Assembly: GCA_947588785.1 (NCBI GenBank)
Contig: CANPZN010000008.1
Span: 1-44,291, forward strand
Direction of reading: 5' to 3'
From: Candidatus Gastranaerophilales bacterium
GTDB lineage: Bacteria; Cyanobacteriota; Vampirovibrionia; Gastranaerophilales; Gastranaerophilaceae
DNA length: 44,291 bases
The position numbers and the translations under genes are program-made. Numbering within the stretch: the stretch's first letter is position 1; the number at the start of each line of letters is the position of its first letter. Below are positions 78 through 34,597 of the stretch, one piece after another. Below the pieces are notes generated by a model, which was given only the letters and a program-made list of their open reading frames with translations, ran no database searches and was not told the DNA's origin.

Positions 78-91
78 AAATAATAATTATA

Positions 92-226
92 TTTAATCTA
101 GTATCGCAACCTTGTGCTTGCTGTCTTGAAATTTGCTGTCTTGGGGTTTGCCATTCGCTCGCTTTCGCTCGACTTCACCCTACGGAAAATTCACTACGTT
201 CAGAACCAACAAAATTTTCTCGGACA
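92..226 (+). repeat. Dispersed A/B repeat, copy 1 (complete)
   Basis: The A end (TTTAATCTAGTATCGCAACC) starts at 92 and the B end (AAAATTTTCTCGGACA) finishes at 226. The middle carries the shared tract CGACTTCACCCTACGGAAAA. The copy lies 3' of the minus-strand gene that ends at 290 and runs B to A along that gene's transcription. In the sense frame used by in-gene copies it reads CPRKFCWF and then meets a stop, so this copy is not coding. Confidence 0.85.
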
Positions 227-289
227 ATCTAAAACTTGCCCTTTTTCATGAGTTGGGAGGAGAAAAGGTAGAGAAAAAAAGAAAAAATT

Positions 290-1525
290 CTAATTATTCT
301 CATACATTTTAATTATTTCTCTTATTTCTTCATTTTCAATTGATTCCAGACTGGATTGATAATACTTTTTTAAAACTTCTTCTGCTTTTTTAAAACCTTC
401 TTTCAATTCTTCTGATCCGGCACTATTCCAAACGTTTTTTCGATATTGATTAACTATTACTTCTTCTTTCGGAGTTAATTCTTCATCACTATCTTTTTCT
501 TTTGCAAATAATCTGGCTAAATAACCGTCTTGAGAGGCCATTTGAGAAGCAATTTCTCTTGTTTTGGGGCAAAAATACCAAACGAGTTTCATTCTCATTG
601 ATGCCATTTTTGCTTGTCTATCTTTATTTTCAATTCGTTCGAGTTCTTTTTGTTTTTTTTCATCTTCTTTTAATTGAAGTGCAAGTTCTTTCTCAAATTG
701 TAATTGTTTTATGGCTGTCGTATTTTTTTCAGTTGTCCTGTCAATATACATTACACCTATTTCATAAGGGAATATATATTCGCCGATTATATCTATTTCA
801 CCCTTTTTTATCAGATTGATAAGTGTTTGATTCGATATACCAACTTCTTTTGCAAGTCTTGGAGCTAGTATAATATTAGGATTATTTTCTTTTATATTTA
901 ACAACAATTTATAGTTGTTCATATCGTTAACATCAACCATGGTTTTAGTTTTTCTACCTTGAAGTGTGTCAACTGATTCTATTTTACCTTTTAATTTACC
1001 GTCTTGAACAAGTCTTTTTAAAAGTCCAATAGGCCCATAACCGATTTTTTGTAAATACAATATTGGAACATAAGGTTCTGATGAATGGTTTAACGAAGAA
1101 GAATAATATTTTGAACGTTTTGGTCTTATTCTCGCAACTTCTTCATACAAAACATCAAGTTTTTCTTTATTCTTAGGGTCTGCCATATCAACAAATCTAA
1201 TGGCTTCATCTGAAGATTTATTTTGAGATGGAATTTCTATAAAAGATAAACCTATGCTATCTAATGCATCAATGGTAATACTTAATTCTTTTGAAAGGGC
1301 CTCCGGGAGTTTTAAATTTCCTTGGTGTTGTTTTAAAATTTCAACTGTTGCTTTTGTAGTTTCATCAGTCATATCCGGAATATTTTTTAATTCATCTTCA
1401 CCGAATTTTATAAGCTGATTTTTTTCTAATAATTTCATAACATCTTTAACTTGTTTTTTTGACCCGGCATTTTCAATAAAACCTAATAAATCTTGTTTAT
1501 CGACGATACCATTTTCTTTTAACAT
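290..1525 (-). CDS. Hypothetical protein (3' part of the frameshifted gene)
   Basis: This is the 411-residue part of the broken gene that can be read from an ATG (MLKENGIVDKQDLL). The frame continues upstream without a start codon, which suggests the ATG at 1525 is internal rather than a true start. The product is hydrophilic, with a Lys/Glu-rich helix around residues 275-310 and no signal peptide or membrane segment. I recognise no catalytic motif. The sequence ILAPRLAKEVGISNQTLINL looks like a helix-turn-helix or MerR-like fold, but this is weak. No function is assigned. Confidence 0.55.
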   Translation of the reverse strand: MLKENGIVDKQDLLGFIENAGSKKQVKDVMKLLEKNQLIKFGEDELKNIPDMTDETTKATVEILKQHQGNLKLPEALSKELSITIDALDSIGLSFIEIPSQNKSSDEAIRFVDMADPKNKEKLDVLYEEVARIRPKRSKYYSSSLNHSSEPYVPILYLQKIGYGPIGLLKRLVQDGKLKGKIESVDTLQGRKTKTMVDVNDMNNYKLLLNIKENNPNIILAPRLAKEVGISNQTLINLIKKGEIDIIGEYIFPYEIGVMYIDRTTEKNTTAIKQLQFEKELALQLKEDEKKQKELERIENKDRQAKMASMRMKLVWYFCPKTREIASQMASQDGYLARLFAKEKDSDEELTPKEEVIVNQYRKNVWNSAGSEELKEGFKKAEEVLKKYYQSSLESIENEEIREIIKMYENN

Positions 1526-2126
1526 TTCAAGTTTTGTCTTTGGATCTATGAATGGATTAAAACAAGGTGCTACATCGGGATTTATATCAAGATAATGAAT
1601 ATACTTATCGCAACTTGCTTTTAAGGCTGAAATTCGTGATGGAGCTTTTTCAATATATATTTTTGCTCCTTGTACTGTTTTTGATGTAAATATTGTAGCC
1701 GCACCGAATAACTTAAGTGTATTGACACCCCATAAATGGCAATCTCTAAGAGCTTTTTTTGCACAATTTGAAATTTTATCAGATTTTGCATCCTCATGAT
1801 TTGCTAAAAGCTCATCAATTAATTTATCTTTTTGTAACTCATCGCTGTTCTTTATTTCATTTTTAAAGGATCTTAAATGTTCATTAGAAGTAAAAAGATC
1901 TCTAACAAAATTAGTAACATCATAATAAAATATTAAGTCTTGTTCATATTTGCTTTTTTGTGTTTCTATCTCTTTAATTTTCTTTTGTGTTTCTAATATT
2001 GCATCTTTTTTTAATTTTTCTATTTTTTCTTTTTTACTGTTATTTAAATCCAGGGTATCTTCTTTTAATTTCCTTTAAACATTATTGTTGGTTTAAAAGG
2101 ATTTGAAAAAAAATTTTTAACCGGAA

Positions 2127-2152
2127 TTAATCCGGTGTAACACCTTGCTGCC
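2127..2152 (+). repeat. Dispersed repeat, degenerate A end inside a gene
   Basis: The + strand reads TTAATCCGGTGTAACACC, matching the A end at most positions. On the minus strand it is translated within the N-terminus of the broken gene as RCYTGLI, parallel to GCNTGLN and GCDTRLN in other in-gene copies. No B end is visible. Confidence 0.5.
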
Positions 2153-2339
2153 GACTTATCATTGCCGTTCAAGTAATCAACTAAGTTACTTGATTTATTA
2201 TATAAATTAATATTCATACTTGATATTTGCATAATTATCCTTACTTTTCTTGATATTTGATTTAAAAATATAAATAATAAAATTTGCTTAAAAATTAATT
2301 TTTATTAAGAGAAAAAATTTTTTCAGGCATTGTGTGTAT

Positions 2340-14030: not shown

Positions 14031-14084
14031 GCTATTCTCCTTCTTTTATTTACGATTCAATGTTTCACTACAAAACAGACTTTC

Positions 14085-14150
14085 ATTTAATCCAGTGTCG
14101 CAACCGTAAAGTTGCTTACCTTTTAAAAACGCCACTTTAAAATTTTACTT
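14085..14150 (+). repeat. Dispersed repeat, copy with A end and partial B end
   Basis: TTTAATCCAGTGTCGCAACC is followed by GTAAAGTTGCTTACC, which forms a GCAAC/GTTGC hairpin, then a degraded AAAATTTTACTT with no CGGACA. It sits between two exported-protein genes and touches the stop of the upstream minus-strand gene at 14149. It runs B to A along both. Confidence 0.75.
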
Positions 14151-23534: not shown

Positions 23535-24681
23535 ATATTAATATATAATTCTTGATTATATTAATTACGGTTTTTCCGAAGAATAGTATAAAAAACATTG
23601 AAAATATTAATGCCGGGCCAAATGGTATTGCAATATATGCTTTATTATTTACTACCCCTTTTAATCTTTTTATTGAATCAATGGCAAAAAATATTAATAC
23701 TACAACAAAACCGAATCTTACAAAAAGATTAAGAGTCATACAATTTAATAAAATTAAATATAACATGGCTAACAGGAAAAACAAAGATAATGAAACTAAT
23801 AATCTTATATGATTTTCTCTGTATAACTTTACCAAAAATTGAGGCAAAATACATATTGCTTGTATAATAATAGCTAACAAAACAGCAGGAATAAACATTT
23901 TAGCACCAAGAAGAGCTCCCGCCCCTGAGGCTAGATATGTATCACCTTCACCAAAAGCTCTTTTATATTTTTGAACATATTCATTTATATCTAATTCCTG
24001 ATCATTATTTTTAACATCATTTAATTCGATGTCACACTTTGCCTTAGACTCGTTCACTTCACTCTCACATTCTTGGGTTTGCTCACTTTCCTTATCGCAA
24101 AATTTTCTCGGACACTCTTCTAATTGACAATTATCTGTTTGATTTTCAGTCTGTTTTTTCTTTATAAGATAATATGAGAGCTTTGCAATAATTTCCATTA
24201 CTACTGCCCCTACTATCAGTCCAAATAGTGCAAAATGTATATTGTTTACAATTATTGAATATATCAATGAAGTAATAATAAATATCCAAAGATGAGAATC
24301 AAATACGTATTCTTTTTTTATATCCGTAATTGTAATAACTATAGAAATACATATCAAAATCAACAATAATATTGAAGATAAAGAAATACCATATACATTA
24401 TATATTAAGAGAAAACATAAAGCACAAAATGCTTCAACTATCGGATATTGAATACTGACTTTTTCACCGCAGCTTCTGCATTTGCCTCTTATTGTCAGAA
24501 AATATGAAAATATGGGAATATTATCGTACCATTTTATCGGAGTATTACAATACGGACATTTAGAAGAAGGAAAAACTATAGATTCCTTTGATAAAGCTCT
24601 TAAGGCAACTACATTTAGGAAACTTCCTATACACGCTCCAACTGCCAGTACAAATAACCATATAACATATACTTCATTCAT
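23533..24681 (-). CDS. pilD: Prepilin peptidase (PilD/GspO type) with an in-frame repeat insertion
   Basis: This 382-residue bifunctional leader peptidase/methyltransferase processes type IV prepilins at the inner membrane. The N-terminal domain has the zinc-finger-like CPYCNTPIKWYDNIPIFSYF and CRSCGEKVSIQYP. The catalytic Asp pair is in VITITDIKKEYVFD and in FGEGDTYLASGAGALLG. Hydrophobic helices surround both. Between them, a polar loop (about residues 170-235) is unusually long and contains a complete copy of the dispersed repeat at residues about 190-221 (CPRKFCDKESEQ ... CDIELND). The enzyme otherwise looks intact. It is 15 bases after the SigF-like sigma gene, and its substrates would include the pilins assembled by the pilMN-pilO products. 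Confidence 0.93.
   Translation of the reverse strand: MNEVYVIWLFVLAVGACIGSFLNVVALRALSKESIVFPSSKCPYCNTPIKWYDNIPIFSYFLTIRGKCRSCGEKVSIQYPIVEAFCALCFLLIYNVYGISLSSILLLILICISIVITITDIKKEYVFDSHLWIFIITSLIYSIIVNNIHFALFGLIVGAVVMEIIAKLSYYLIKKKQTENQTDNCQLEECPRKFCDKESEQTQECESEVNESKAKCDIELNDVKNNDQELDINEYVQKYKRAFGEGDTYLASGAGALLGAKMFIPAVLLAIIIQAICILPQFLVKLYRENHIRLLVSLSLFFLLAMLYLILLNCMTLNLFVRFGFVVVLIFFAIDSIKRLKGVVNNKAYIAIPFGPALIFSMFFILFFGKTVINIIKNYILI
24020..24114 (+). repeat. Dispersed A/B repeat inside the prepilin peptidase gene
   Basis: The A end TTTAATTCGATGTCACAC starts at 24020 and the B end TTATCGCAAAATTTTCTCGGACA finishes at 24114. The middle includes CACTTCACTCTCACATTC. On the gene strand it is read in frame as CPRKFCDKESE to KCDIELN with no stop, in a cytoplasmic loop. 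Confidence 0.9.
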
Positions 24682-29945: not shown

Positions 29946-31694
29946 TTACACAATAGTTTTTAATTCTTTAAAAACTTCCGGAATATTTTTTTCAGAAATT
30001 ACAGAGTTTGATTTTTGTTGTTCCAGTGCCTTTGCTTGTGCAACTTTTTTTTCTGTTACCTTTCTATTGTATTTCGGCAGAAGAAATCCTAACATAATTA
30101 TTGAAAATGCTATATCTGCAACTCTGCATATATTTCTCAAATTGCGTACTTTTGTACCTGATACTTCCGCTGCTGTTTTTAATTCCGTATTTTTAACCCA
30201 ATTACCCAATTGTTTCACACGATATTGTCCTTGTTGTAATACCTGTGTAAATTTAGATGAACCTAATTCCACTATTGGTTTTTGTACTTCTTTGCTTCTA
30301 TTTAACAAAATAACATTTTCACCTGTTATTTTAGCTCCCTTTTTTGTTTTTGATAATGCTTCTATTGCAGATGCGGCAGCTTTTTTTACATAATCTCCCA
30401 GAAAATATAACCCCGCAAATGATGCTATATCTCTTACAGTTGTTTCTCTTAATTCATTAGTATCTTCAGCACCCATCATTCTGCTTGCAAATGTTGAAGC
30501 TGCTATCCATCGGCATTGATCTAATGACGGAAATATCCCTGAAAATTGGAACATTCCTAATGACGGTTTTTTCATCATTGATGCACCGGCTAAACCATAC
30601 ATGCCTGCTGCCGCAAGAAGTTTTTTTACTTTAAATTCTTTTTTTTGTTTCTCATCCATTTTCTGGGTTGTATCTTGTTTCCCAAATTCTTTATATATTG
30701 GTGCTCCTTCTGCATTGAATTGTTTTCTTGTTATTGATCTGTTTATTGTTTGAACACTCATTGCTATCGCAATTACTATCCCAAGACCTATTAAACTCTT
30801 TTGATTTACAAACTTTTTTAAACCTTTTGCATAATTATCTATTGATTGTGATATTTTTGCATTATCACCGCCGTTTTTTATTACATTATTTTTTACTGTT
30901 TCAAATTTAGTACCTAAATCTGCTATATCTCTTATTGTTTCTTCCAAATTTGACTGCTTTTGACCGTTAAATCTCAGTATATTTTCTGCTTTTGTTAAAT
31001 TTGCAATTCCTTCACGAGCTTCTTTTAACAATGTTTTTTTATCTGCTTTTTTATCAGTTATTGCTATTGTTATTTTTTCAATAGCTTCTTTAAATTCCGG
31101 CTTTTCTGAATTTTGGGCATAACTTACCCAATTTTTTCCGTCTAAACCTTCTATTGATGATAATGCATTCTTTACATAATCTTTTACCGTATTTTCAGCT
31201 CCGGAACTCTGTGATTGTTTATATATTTCACTAAGTTTATTTATTGAATCACTATTTGCCCAAGAACTAACTACATTTGTACCTTTTATTTCTTTTGATT
31301 TCGGTAATAATTTTGCTATTCCTTTTACTACCAATCCGGGCATCAAGCAATTTACAAATAAACCTGAAAATTCTCTTCGGCAAGTTTCAAATGCCGCTGC
31401 TAATCCTGTCCCTAAATCAACAACTGTTCTCGGAATATTTGTTGATACCGTATCTACAAATGATACTTGTATCATTGCATTTTTATCCAATATTTTAAAT
31501 AGTTTATCCAAAACATTAAATGCTGTATCTGCTCCACCATTAAATGTTGGTGTATTTAATCCAGTGTTGCAACCGTAAAGTTGCTCACCATCTTTTTTAT
31601 AATCACTTCTTTTTATCGAACTATTATTTCTGCTATTATTTCTATAATCTTGATTACACGCAAAAATTTTTCTATCTACATTTACTATCTTCAC
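29946..31694 (-). CDS. Uncharacterised protein with hydrophobic segments and an N-terminal FNG motif
   Basis: The protein has 582 residues. The N-terminal 45 are polar and variable and contain an A-end repeat read as GEQLYGCNTGLN at about 36-47. TPTFNGGADTAFNVLDKLFK follows. Later come a Gly-rich LVVKGIAKLLPKSKEIKGTN, a long charged helix region, a hydrophobic segment (SLIGLGIVIAIAMSVQTINR), and further semi-hydrophobic helices (LLAAAGMYGLAGASMMKK; IAFSIIMLGFLLPKYN). It may be membrane-associated, though no signal peptide is present. I do not know the family. It shares its N-terminal plan with the two neighbouring proteins at 31997 and 33410. Confidence 0.7.
   Translation of the reverse strand: MKIVNVDRKIFACNQDYRNNSRNNSSIKRSDYKKDGEQLYGCNTGLNTPTFNGGADTAFNVLDKLFKILDKNAMIQVSFVDTVSTNIPRTVVDLGTGLAAAFETCRREFSGLFVNCLMPGLVVKGIAKLLPKSKEIKGTNVVSSWANSDSINKLSEIYKQSQSSGAENTVKDYVKNALSSIEGLDGKNWVSYAQNSEKPEFKEAIEKITIAITDKKADKKTLLKEAREGIANLTKAENILRFNGQKQSNLEETIRDIADLGTKFETVKNNVIKNGGDNAKISQSIDNYAKGLKKFVNQKSLIGLGIVIAIAMSVQTINRSITRKQFNAEGAPIYKEFGKQDTTQKMDEKQKKEFKVKKLLAAAGMYGLAGASMMKKPSLGMFQFSGIFPSLDQCRWIAASTFASRMMGAEDTNELRETTVRDIASFAGLYFLGDYVKKAAASAIEALSKTKKGAKITGENVILLNRSKEVQKPIVELGSSKFTQVLQQGQYRVKQLGNWVKNTELKTAAEVSGTKVRNLRNICRVADIAFSIIMLGFLLPKYNRKVTEKKVAQAKALEQQKSNSVISEKNIPEVFKELKTIV
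31556..31590 (+). repeat. Dispersed repeat A end inside the gene at 29946
   Basis: TTAATCCAGTGTTGCAACCG with AAAGTTGCTCACC forms the usual GCAAC/GTTGC hairpin. On the gene strand it is in frame as GEQLYGCNTGLN, the same frame as in the gene at 33410. No B end is present, so only half the element is kept here. Confidence 0.85.
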
Positions 31695-31996
31695 TTTATA
31701 AGCACCTTCTTACATGTTCGACCATTTGCAATAATATCAATTTAAGGTTTAAAAACAAATTTATTTGCCATTTACTTTTATGCTTTTTTATTTAAAATTA
31801 TCATTTTTTATGAAATTTTTAATTTTTTTTATTATTTTTCGTTTTTTTTTTACATCTTTTTTCATTAAATTAATCTTTTTTTTCAAATTATATGAATTTT
31901 TTTTATAAAAAATTTCATATTTACATTTTTTAATCTTACATAACAAATTTAATTTTATTGAGTTTTTTAATCAACAAAGAGAGTATTTATTTAAAC
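31695..31996. other. T-tract-rich divergent intergenic region
   Basis: About 300 bases between divergent genes with no convincing ORF. It is extreme in composition, with many runs of 6-9 T on the + strand (A on the other) from about 31800 to 31930. Such phased A/T runs usually give curved, nucleoid-protein-binding DNA and may house promoters for both genes. I cannot fix a -35/-10 pair with confidence. Confidence 0.5.
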
Positions 31997-33361
31997 ATGA
32001 AAATTCAGCCTATTAACTATAATTATTTTAATAATTTAAGTTGTCCGAAAAAATTTTGCGATAATGAACGTAAACAAAATTTTCCTATGGTGACGAGCAT
32101 AAGCGAGCAATGCCGAGAATGTGAGAGAGAGCTGAATAACAAACAAAGTGCAGTAAAGCACTCGAGCGATAAAAAGCAAATTATTGAGCCGATAGGTGAA
32201 ATCAATGAACCTATATCCGCAGCGAAGCAAAGTATGAGAAAGGAAAATTTAAGACTGCAAGTACAAGGTTGCGACACCAGATTAAATTTAAATTCATTAG
32301 ATTCTAATTCGCTTCAATGTGCAAATAAAACTGATAGCCATTTTAAATTACCTGATTATAAATTCTATACTTTTCTTTTTGCTTCAAGTAAAAAGAGAAC
32401 TTACTCTTCTAATAATAATTTACTGAAAGAAATACCGGGTAATTTTAAAATATGTAATCTTGACGGTATAATTTGCCCGGCTTGCGGCAAAAAAATGTTA
32501 TCTGAAAAAAAATATATTGAAATATGTGAAAAATTACAGAATATCCCAAAAGATCAATATCTCAATTTCTTATATCAATACAGAGATTACATGCGACCTG
32601 TTGAAACAAGTGTTTTTGATGAAATTTTTTCAATTTCTAAATTAAAAGGTAATTCTAAAGATATCAGAACTTTACTTGTTAATTTAAGAAATACAAAATT
32701 ACCTTTGTTGCAAGAAGCTCAAATGAAACAAATTAATAAAATGTTTGCTCTGGCAAAAACTCTCCCCTCAGAAGAAAAACGTTCTTTAAATTCTAAAATT
32801 ATTAAATTGAAAAAAGAAATACATAGAAAAAATGCCTTAGCTCCTTTTCGACGAAAAGTCATGATCGACAGAATCAGTAAATTAAAAATTAAAAATCCGA
32901 GAAATTTTAAAAAACTCCAAATGATCGCTCATAATTTCCCCACCTCTACAGATATGACTTCTGCCTGGATCGTTAAATATTCAGGTCAGAACAAAAAAAA
33001 TCAAAATTGGGATTCTTACACAATCGCAACACGTTTTCTTGCTTCCTCTGTTTCTAACACTGATCATATAATGCCTTATTCATCTAACCCTAATCATGAT
33101 GATATCTCTAACTATATGGCTATGCATAATGCTTGTAATACTCAAAAAAGTGATAAATCCTTTCTTCATTGGATTAATGAAGATAAAAAAAACAGAATTA
33201 AATTCATCAAACAATACTTTTTTGATGTTTCTGAAAACATTTCAAATCATAAAATTACTGATAACAGATATAAAAATTACGTTGCATATGCAACAAACAC
33301 TATTTATATTGCCTCTCACGGTCAAATCAATCTTTTTAAAAAATATCAACATAAAATTTAA
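31997..33361 (+). CDS. HNH-motif protein, uncharacterised (possible nuclease)
   Basis: The protein has about 454 residues from the ATG at 31997 (MKIQPINYNYFNN); a TTG at 31958 would add 13. Residues 16-97 are a full in-frame copy of the dispersed repeat. A CPACGKKM segment follows at about 159. Near the C-terminus comes TDHIMPYSSNPNHDDISNYM with MHNACNTQKSD (about 354-385), which matches the DHI...N...HxxCN core of HNH endonucleases. The middle is a Lys-rich helical region. No signal peptide. A nuclease role is plausible but not shown. The stop codon lies in the A end of another repeat copy. Confidence 0.7.
   Translation: MKIQPINYNYFNNLSCPKKFCDNERKQNFPMVTSISEQCRECERELNNKQSAVKHSSDKKQIIEPIGEINEPISAAKQSMRKENLRLQVQGCDTRLNLNSLDSNSLQCANKTDSHFKLPDYKFYTFLFASSKKRTYSSNNNLLKEIPGNFKICNLDGIICPACGKKMLSEKKYIEICEKLQNIPKDQYLNFLYQYRDYMRPVETSVFDEIFSISKLKGNSKDIRTLLVNLRNTKLPLLQEAQMKQINKMFALAKTLPSEEKRSLNSKIIKLKKEIHRKNALAPFRRKVMIDRISKLKIKNPRNFKKLQMIAHNFPTSTDMTSAWIVKYSGQNKKNQNWDSYTIATRFLASSVSNTDHIMPYSSNPNHDDISNYMAMHNACNTQKSDKSFLHWINEDKKNRIKFIKQYFFDVSENISNHKITDNRYKNYVAYATNTIYIASHGQINLFKKYQHKI
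32042..32287 (-). repeat. Dispersed A/B repeat inside the HNH-motif gene (longest coding copy)
   Basis: In gene direction it starts TGTCCGAAAAAATTTTGCGA (CPKKFCDNERKQNF) and ends GGTTGCGACACCAGATTAAA (GCDTRLN). In between are about 200 bases of variable, open sequence (ECERELNNKQSAVKHSS). It is 246 bases, divisible by three, with no stop. It is oriented opposite to the other in-gene copies on the map because the host gene is on the other strand. Confidence 0.9.
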
Positions 33362-33412
33362 TCTGGTGTCACAATCCTAAAGTTGCTCAATTTAATTTAC
33401 TCGAACTTTTTA
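33356..33412 (+). repeat. Dispersed repeat remnant between convergent genes
   Basis: TTTAATCTGGTGTCACAATC is followed by CTAAAGTTGCTCAATT, an A end with a decayed hairpin. The HNH-motif gene's TAA stop lies in its first bases. The other side ends near the stop of the minus-strand gene at 33410 with a weak B-like TTATGCGATA. Confidence 0.7.
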
Positions 33413-34597
33413 TGCGATAATATTATAACTCTTTAATGATTGACTTGCAGATTGGTGTTTCGGGAACAAAGATCTTTTTTTGTTTTCTTCAGGCGGATGA
33501 TTTGGTGATGTTTTCGCTATATCAGGATCTCTTAATACGTATATTTCTTCTACTCTGTTTGATAATTTAGATGGTGATTCTTTATATAATTCTGCTGCAT
33601 AATCCATTTCAGGATCTTTTATTCCTTTTGAATTATTAATCCAAAATTCCGTTGCAAGTTTATATGCATCTTGTTCTTCTTTTACTGAAGTATACGGATC
33701 ATTATCTTTTGCATGTACGGTTTCATGTACCAAATATGCTGCTATTACTTCAGGAGCTGCATATATATATGTATTTGATACTGTTATTGTATTTTTACTA
33801 TTTTCATACTGGGCAATATTAGAAGTACCGCCCATTTTTGAGGTTTCGCCAAATCTTATTTTTACATCCGATAATTCTTGCATATATTGAGGTGTTAAAT
33901 AGTATGCTGCCATATTTAATGCTGCATTCAGGTTTTTTCTTGCTTGTTCTGCTTTTTCTTTACTTGCTTGCATTGGATTATAACAACTTAAAATATTATT
34001 TTTTGTTTCTAATATACTTCTTTTGGCTAAATCATTATTGGATTCTATTTTTAAAACACTTTCAAAAGTATTTACTGCTTTTTTATAGTCACCTTTTTGA
34101 CGTTGAACCTCACCTAATTCTGTTAATACATCTATATTTTGAGGATCTTTTTCCAGATATTTTTTATAATTTTCTTCACTTATTTCATAATTTTTTAAAT
34201 GAAATTGTACTTTTGCTATTTTTTTATATAAATCTATATTATCGGGATCTAAATTTTGTGCTTTTGTATAACTAGCCAATGCCTCTTCAAATTTATTTTC
34301 ATTTAATGCATTATCTCCTTTTTGAATTTCTTCTTTATTATTTGATGAATTACCACCTAAAAATTTAGGTGTCATTTTACAATTTTGATTTAATCTGTTG
34401 TCGCAACCGTAAAGTTGCTCACCTTTTAAAGACCCCACTCTAAAATTTCTCTGTCTTAAATTTTCCTTTCTCTCGGACAAGTAGTTCGCTTCGGGATTTG
34501 ATCTTTCGCTCAACTCCACCCTACGAAAATTTCGTTCATTTTCTTTATCGTAAAATTTTCTCGGACAGCTTATATAAGAAGAATTAATAGAGATCAT
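33410..34597 (-). CDS. TPR protein with a HExxH metallopeptidase-like motif
   Basis: The protein has 395 residues. Residues 11-70 are a composite in-frame copy of the dispersed repeat (CPRKFYDKENERNFRR to GEQLYGCDNRLN). KMTPKFLGGNSS follows. About three tetratricopeptide units (about 88-190; ALASYTKAQNLDPDNIDLYK, NYKKYLEKDPQNIDVLTELG, AVNTFESVLKIESNNDLAKR) come next. The C-terminal region has YLVHETVHAKD with HETVH at 291-295, a zinc-peptidase signature, and a following KEEQDAYKLATEFW that could supply the third ligand. TPR units often bind protein partners. No signal peptide, so its location is unclear. Protease activity is inferred only from the motif. Confidence 0.75.
   Translation of the reverse strand: MISINSSYISCPRKFYDKENERNFRRVELSERSNPEANYLSERKENLRQRNFRVGSLKGEQLYGCDNRLNQNCKMTPKFLGGNSSNNKEEIQKGDNALNENKFEEALASYTKAQNLDPDNIDLYKKIAKVQFHLKNYEISEENYKKYLEKDPQNIDVLTELGEVQRQKGDYKKAVNTFESVLKIESNNDLAKRSILETKNNILSCYNPMQASKEKAEQARKNLNAALNMAAYYLTPQYMQELSDVKIRFGETSKMGGTSNIAQYENSKNTITVSNTYIYAAPEVIAAYLVHETVHAKDNDPYTSVKEEQDAYKLATEFWINNSKGIKDPEMDYAAELYKESPSKLSNRVEEIYVLRDPDIAKTSPNHPPEENKKRSLFPKHQSASQSLKSYNIIA
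34389..34567 (+). repeat. Composite dispersed repeat inside the TPR/HExxH gene
   Basis: The A end TTTAATCTGTTGTCGCAACC with hairpin GCAACCGTAAAGTTGC starts at 34389. A first CTCGGACA ends at 34479. After a middle containing CTCCACCCTACGAAAATTTC, a second B end TTATCGTAAAATTTTCTCGGACA finishes at 34567. This looks like one element inside or beside another. The whole is in frame in the gene. Confidence 0.9.

Follow-up and report, generated by a model that had tools for sequence, protein, structure and literature searches.

The 44,291-nucleotide stretch of DNA studied here (the window), contig C8 of a genome assembly (2.1 Mb, 93% complete) from Gastranaerophilales, an order of non-photosynthetic relatives of Cyanobacteria from animal guts, raises the question of why three adjacent genes coding for unrelated proteins (a helical membrane protein, an HNH protein and a TPR/HExxH protein) begin in the same way. 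The original prediction, made from the sequence of this locus, held that these proteins share a short start, a variable region and a P-x-F-x-G motif, and that this motif could be a sorting, processing or binding tag. Our analyses show that a bipartite N-terminal tag is almost certainly real, and that the prediction misdrew the tag yet sensed it correctly: an F-x-G within a longer plan exceeds chance, whereas P-x-F-x-G as written does not hold. Genome-wide counts were made on 835 kb of the host genome and 400 kb from each of two relatives, and orthologs of the genes at 29946 and 33410 were read from the DNA of as many as 18 relatives, some of which belong to other families of the order. Further sets of loci comprise 78 named ones for the 29946 family, 27 syntenic orthologs for the 33410 gene and 28 for the HNH gene.

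The peptides initially singled out do exist. TPTFNGG occupies residues 48–54 of the protein encoded at 29946 and TPKFLGG residues 76–82 of that at 33410, and both PTIMFKGN in a broken gene and the start MKIQPINYNYFNN of the HNH gene are present. In agreement with the claim that a classic signal peptide is missing, a hydrophobic one is absent from the leaders of the quoted proteins, which are polar, and the three window proteins have no Sec-type hydrophobic h-region. By contrast, P-x-F-x-G as a shared motif occurs in its strict form in two window genes and one other protein only; a search for enrichment in the first 110 residues on a 443 kb sample recovered this single further protein, where the match lies within a membrane protein. 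Since strict P-x-F-x-G near the N-terminus is almost limited to the quoted genes, it is not the tag as drawn, and we rejected it: the proline does not belong to the motif, and P-x-F-x-G defines too narrow a set. The HNH gene has the start and the repeat that had been noticed but LPDYKFY, also proposed, is not its motif; the adjacent FLFASS is, as it aligns with Y-Y-x-P-[V/I]-N-F-T-S of its relatives.

Redrawn from the orthologs, the element reads [S/N/T]-F-x-[G/S/A] after an M-x-[I/V] start and a disordered spacer (Table 1), the residue before F being mostly S, N or T and that at F+2 being G, S or A. The F is 93–100% conserved in four unrelated families, the three of the window and a RelA/SpoT-like one: F51 of the 29946 protein in 98% of 48 homologs, F79 of the 33410 protein in 100% of 27 genus orthologs and likewise of 13 more widely drawn sequences, and F128 of the HNH protein in 93% (n=29), a family where M1 and I3 are invariant. 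In the RelA/SpoT-like family (carrier at L012:16106-17596; PF04607 detected in 17 of 17 members, with E up to 0.1 and 2.9e-12 at best), the leader ends in P-L-x-x-D-T-V-S-F-[S/T/G]-[G/A/S], with D31, S34 and F35 invariant. Almost every ortholog of the 29946 and 33410 genes displays a short start, a stretch rich in Asn, Gln and Ser, F-x-G or F-x-S/A and, past it, the conserved domain, and this layout recurs in the 78, 27 and 28 loci of the three window families. Conservation extends to the first residues, M-x-[I/V] being often followed by a second I, V or L at position 5–6: I/V/L at position 3 reaches 53–92% in three families versus a background of 25%, and the 33410 family has these residues at positions 2 and 4 rather than 3. 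The leaders are also poor in Asp and Glu (positions 2–12 have no acidic residue in 89–100% of members of three families, 44% of the 29946 family and 37% of the background) and enriched in Ser (log2 ratio 0.2–1.4). The 29946 family is found in all sampled Gastranaerophilaceae. Within the class, some further orders have it as well, and their homologs mostly keep F-x-G or F-G ahead of the domain.

Table 1. Features of the window bearing on the N-terminal tag.
Feature	Position	Strand	Basis or remark
Broken gene with same-type start MQISSMNINLYN and PTIMFKGN (2074-2094)	290..2232	-	Frame lost directly past the motif
Tagged helical membrane-like protein, 582 aa	29946..31694	-	Homologs and AlphaFold model
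Leader, residues 1-50: M-K-I start and disordered spacer	31545..31694	-	pLDDT below 50, residues 1-51
Motif P-T-F-N-G, residues 49-53	31536..31550	-	F51 conserved
Tagged HNH protein, 454 aa from ATG 31997	31997..33361	+	Pfam HNH 7.8e-5, above cut-off; family alignment
Dispersed DNA repeat, in frame in HNH leader, relatives without it	32031..32300	+	Alignment and repeat search
Degenerate motif L-F-A-S, residues 127-130	32375..32386	+	Equals N-F-T-S of relatives
Tagged TPR protein with conserved HExxH, 395 aa	33410..34597	-	Pfam TPR; alignment; AlphaFold
Dispersed DNA repeat, in frame in 33410 leader	34371..34580	-	Repeat search
Motif P-K-F-L-G, residues 77-81	34355..34369	-	Alignments

Between the start and the motif, sequence and length vary almost freely. 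The spacer is unalignable in the three window families, with a mean frequency of the top residue of 0.08–0.13, and the F lies at residue 13–79 in most aligned members (family medians 23–48, minima 13–16) and at 128 where the repeat is inserted. In the AlphaFold models, for which the family alignments served as input, the domains have pLDDT mostly above 85, in contrast with values below 50 for residues 1–51 of the 29946 protein and 1–82 of the 33410 protein; these low values run through the motif in both models, placing it outside the fold, which begins 3–5 residues further on (first helix at 54 and 84, respectively). Structure comparison matches the 33410 model, where H291, E292 and H295 are invariant in the family, with TPR proteins; the domain of the 29946 protein, whose family has hydrophobic helices, retrieved no PDB match with E ≤0.001 (best VIA Z 6.5).

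Insertion upstream of the motif is indeed tolerated, as initially claimed. A dispersed DNA repeat, found in about 100 places in the 835 kb of the host genome (77 outside ORFs and 21 in frame), sits in window positions 86-230, 14081-14145, 32031-32300 and 34371-34580, with about 96 more sites in the sampled genome and a remnant at 31554-31589 in the 29946 leader. In L004:10089-11801 and in the copies of the three genes that the window contains, it lies in the leader, upstream of the F, whereas the spacers of relatives of the window genes lack it. The order-wide set of loci contains four occurrences, and none was found in genomes of two other genera (G016 and G028). Other in-frame copies occupy the middle of L089:8235-9677 and that of the prepilin peptidase gene (24078-24114). 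The repeat is a lineage-specific element in its own right, and its presence in the spacer shows this region to be permissive. It appears to work like the Rickettsia palindromic elements.

The association between start and motif stands out from several backgrounds. Shuffling the leaders of the 29946 family gave a mean of 8.9 motifs and a maximum of 17, compared with 65 of 76 observed, and the other three families had observed counts of 10 of 15 (shuffled mean 2.2, maximum 8), 10 of 28 (1.3, maximum 5) and 19 of 22 (4.2, maximum 11); because sequences within a family are related, these results are not probabilities and the independent evidence is the agreement of four families. Among 1,380 proteins from three genomes, the F motif follows a polar leader in 13.3% of M-x-[I/V] starts versus 4.8% of the others (P=6.6e-6), a difference that vanishes at internal positions (5.2% versus 5.5%) and when F is replaced by Y, L, I, V, M, K, D, N or E. 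The link persists without the four families (OR 2.9, P=2.2e-5). As the rule was framed after part of the first data had been viewed, most weight goes to its unchanged application to 181 protein clusters of further loci (OR 7, P=0.0016). The association was absent from small samples of three outgroup-order genomes. Plain counting of F-x-G, a motif common in enzymes and for this reason a weak guide, gave only a 1.6–2-fold excess, and both this count and unbiased pair enrichment were discarded as proof.

The tag extends beyond the genes in which it was noticed. By inspection, it is carried by a large alpha-amylase-like protein (PF00128) and a family paralogous to that of 29946; other carriers, named by eye, are a 5’-nucleotidase-like and a kinase-like protein. 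In genome G028, the carrier L272:7801-8730 contains a domain known best from eukaryotes, mTERF (Pfam 4.3e-9). Some tags of this genome, which belongs to another genus, have spacers of about 8–12 residues, and compact tags of that genus, such as MTIRPITSVSFNGNY and MQVKFYTYNVNFSGKS, alternate polar and aliphatic residues. Two large internally duplicated proteins (L063:14374-16845 and L271:11596-13932) contain a second Asn-rich stretch with S-F-x at the junction. A solved-structure search with three other carriers gave no match, and a glucose-6-phosphate-isomerase-like match in G028 was set aside as probably due to chance. A Cys-rich N-terminal module at L004:503-1222, starting with MSVSVTSPNTQRAGLCPHGLPPAACPICSGNGGMGG, may be another shared tag. 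No described tag of this kind in this order appeared in the literature and family libraries searched; as far as these sources show, an order-wide N-terminal tag is new.

What was proposed about the role of this region thus survives in part: the shared plan is present, enriched near N-termini, found in unrelated families, disordered and tolerant to insertion, which is what one would expect of a tag for sorting, processing or binding, and the proline and the set defined by P-x-F-x-G drop out. Disorder, indifference to the spacer and an invariant F in unrelated proteins are marks that we would expect from a short linear motif with one receptor, and quite probably one common receptor reads the tag. 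The tag has a short aliphatic start, M-x-[I/V], followed by an intrinsically disordered spacer whose sequence and length hardly matter and by the short linear motif [S/N/T]-F-x-[G/S/A]. The receptor would read start and F motif as linear peptides, which would explain how unrelated domains can share the tag and how the spacer can take up a repeat.

Where this receptor would send its cargo is a more tentative matter. The host has a flagellar locus with FlhA, FliF, FliG, FliH and FliI (named by eye except FlhA), and its genome also has FlhB. Flagellin is absent from the host and from 10 of 11 members of the genus, and the P-ring protein FlgI from 11 of 11, host included. Two classes of FlhA exist in the order, one occurring alongside flagellin and FlgI and the other in nearly all genomes, even those without them; flagellin-bearing families mostly carry two FlhA proteins and often two FlhB proteins. 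That the gate is kept in nearly all sampled Gastranaerophilaceae genomes suggests that it has a function. FHIPEP occurs in 68 of 68 genomes of the class having the 29946 family (one with partial matches only). Lineage confounds this co-occurrence, and the 29946 family is missing from one family that has both FlhA classes. Beside the full-length FlhA, a protein of ~490 residues (G000:C104:3917-4924) corresponds to the C-terminal half of FHIPEP only; such a protein, equivalent to the cytosolic domain, exists in most Gastranaerophilaceae genomes searched and could be a stand-alone substrate receptor. FliK, a true flagellar export substrate, was considered as proof of a type III link and rejected: the FSG of the host protein is not conserved, its orthologs having P-F-S-[D/E] instead of the tag, which would be expected in FliK if the tag labelled exported proteins in general. 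Partial flagellar sets have been read as loss (PMC3787301, PMC4040986), and these published sets fit a filament-less export apparatus.

By analogy, export through a flagellum-derived type III apparatus kept without flagellin is the destination we favor, tentatively and at somewhat less than even chances: tagged proteins might leave as rod and hook subunits do, by means of a hydrophobic N-terminal signal, a permissive spacer and an F-based docking motif. This putative route leads ahead of docking and processing, which are real rivals. The hydrophobic helices of the 29946 family, unusual for an exported protein, speak against it and would be more at ease with an intracellular docking peptide, by which the leader tethers cargo enzymes to a scaffold, a membrane site or a compartment without export. 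Such docking is a serious possibility of lower probability: the RelA/SpoT-like and HNH carriers could work in the cytosol, and the alternation of polar and aliphatic residues in compact tags is what a beta-augmentation strand would show, but no scaffold or shell was identified in this analysis, and docking requires neither the depletion in acidic residues nor a conserved extreme N-terminal start. This start is equally left unexplained if a dedicated protease cuts at F-x-[G/S/A], removing the spacer and freeing the folded domain. In two models the first helix starts 3–5 residues past the motif, and the residue at F+2 is small almost throughout, as at many cleavage sites; both agree with processing, which the long further linkers C-terminal of the motif in several RelA/SpoT-like members help to make improbable.

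Two other explanations would dispense with a dedicated tag or assign it to a known pathway. Family-specific domain starts, made to look alike by the Asn-rich low complexity of an AT-rich genome, would account for the modest excess in plain counts, and composition does explain part of the likeness; the shuffles, the F-replacement and internal controls, the further-loci test, the position of the motif outside the modelled fold and the second tag at the junction of duplicated proteins make this reading very unlikely. Least likely of all, and scarcely to be expected, is an unusual Sec or lipoprotein signal having the tag as extended n-region: two tagged proteins from another genus do show, ~40–70 residues in, a hydrophobic segment where a cleavage site or lipobox may lie, but most carriers have no hydrophobic stretch past the tag.

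The broadest form of the export reading, where the flagellum-derived type III apparatus of filament-less Gastranaerophilales would be a general secretion machine and M-x-I ... S/N-F-x-G its universal cargo label, is doubtful. If true, relatives of Cyanobacteria in guts and in the environment would have a secretome that has stayed hidden, made up of enzymes among which one carries an mTERF domain, and partial flagellar sets once read as decay would turn into a testable secretion hypothesis. Whatever its destination, an order-wide label on unrelated proteins would be the first handle on protein traffic in this uncultured, gut-abundant lineage, and tagged proteins of unknown function could be listed for each genome and studied together.

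Among known systems, flagellar rod and hook subunits carry an extreme N-terminal hydrophobic signal and a gate recognition motif, a combination that works with GSTNAS-repeat spacers and that in Salmonella has at least 19 residues between its elements (Bryant et al. 2022, PMC8983047). The tag resembles it in its aliphatic extreme N-terminus, permissive polar spacer and downstream F-led motif, in a genome with FlhA and FlhB. By contrast, the rod/hook motif is F-x-x-x-Phi rather than F-x-[G/S/A] (a hydrophobic residue at F+4 occurs in 60%, 0%, 18% and 7% of members of the four families, three of which do not follow F-x-x-x-Phi), the tag spacer is often shorter than that minimum or much longer, and the tag carriers are not flagellar subunits. 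In the Pseudomonas syringae pattern of type III substrates (Schechter et al. 2012, PMC3338616), the first 12 residues include no acidic one, the first 50 have more than 10% serine, and position 3 or 4 is aliphatic; like the tag leaders, which are often aliphatic at these positions too, these effectors have disordered, polar N-termini, but their signals lack the discrete conserved F motif of the tag, and no injectisome was found. Buchnera maintains flagellar basal bodies without filament (PMC8109811) and thus, like our host, has kept the export apparatus while the filament genes are gone. Its lineage is unrelated and, in contrast with that case, a candidate tagged cargo can be proposed here.
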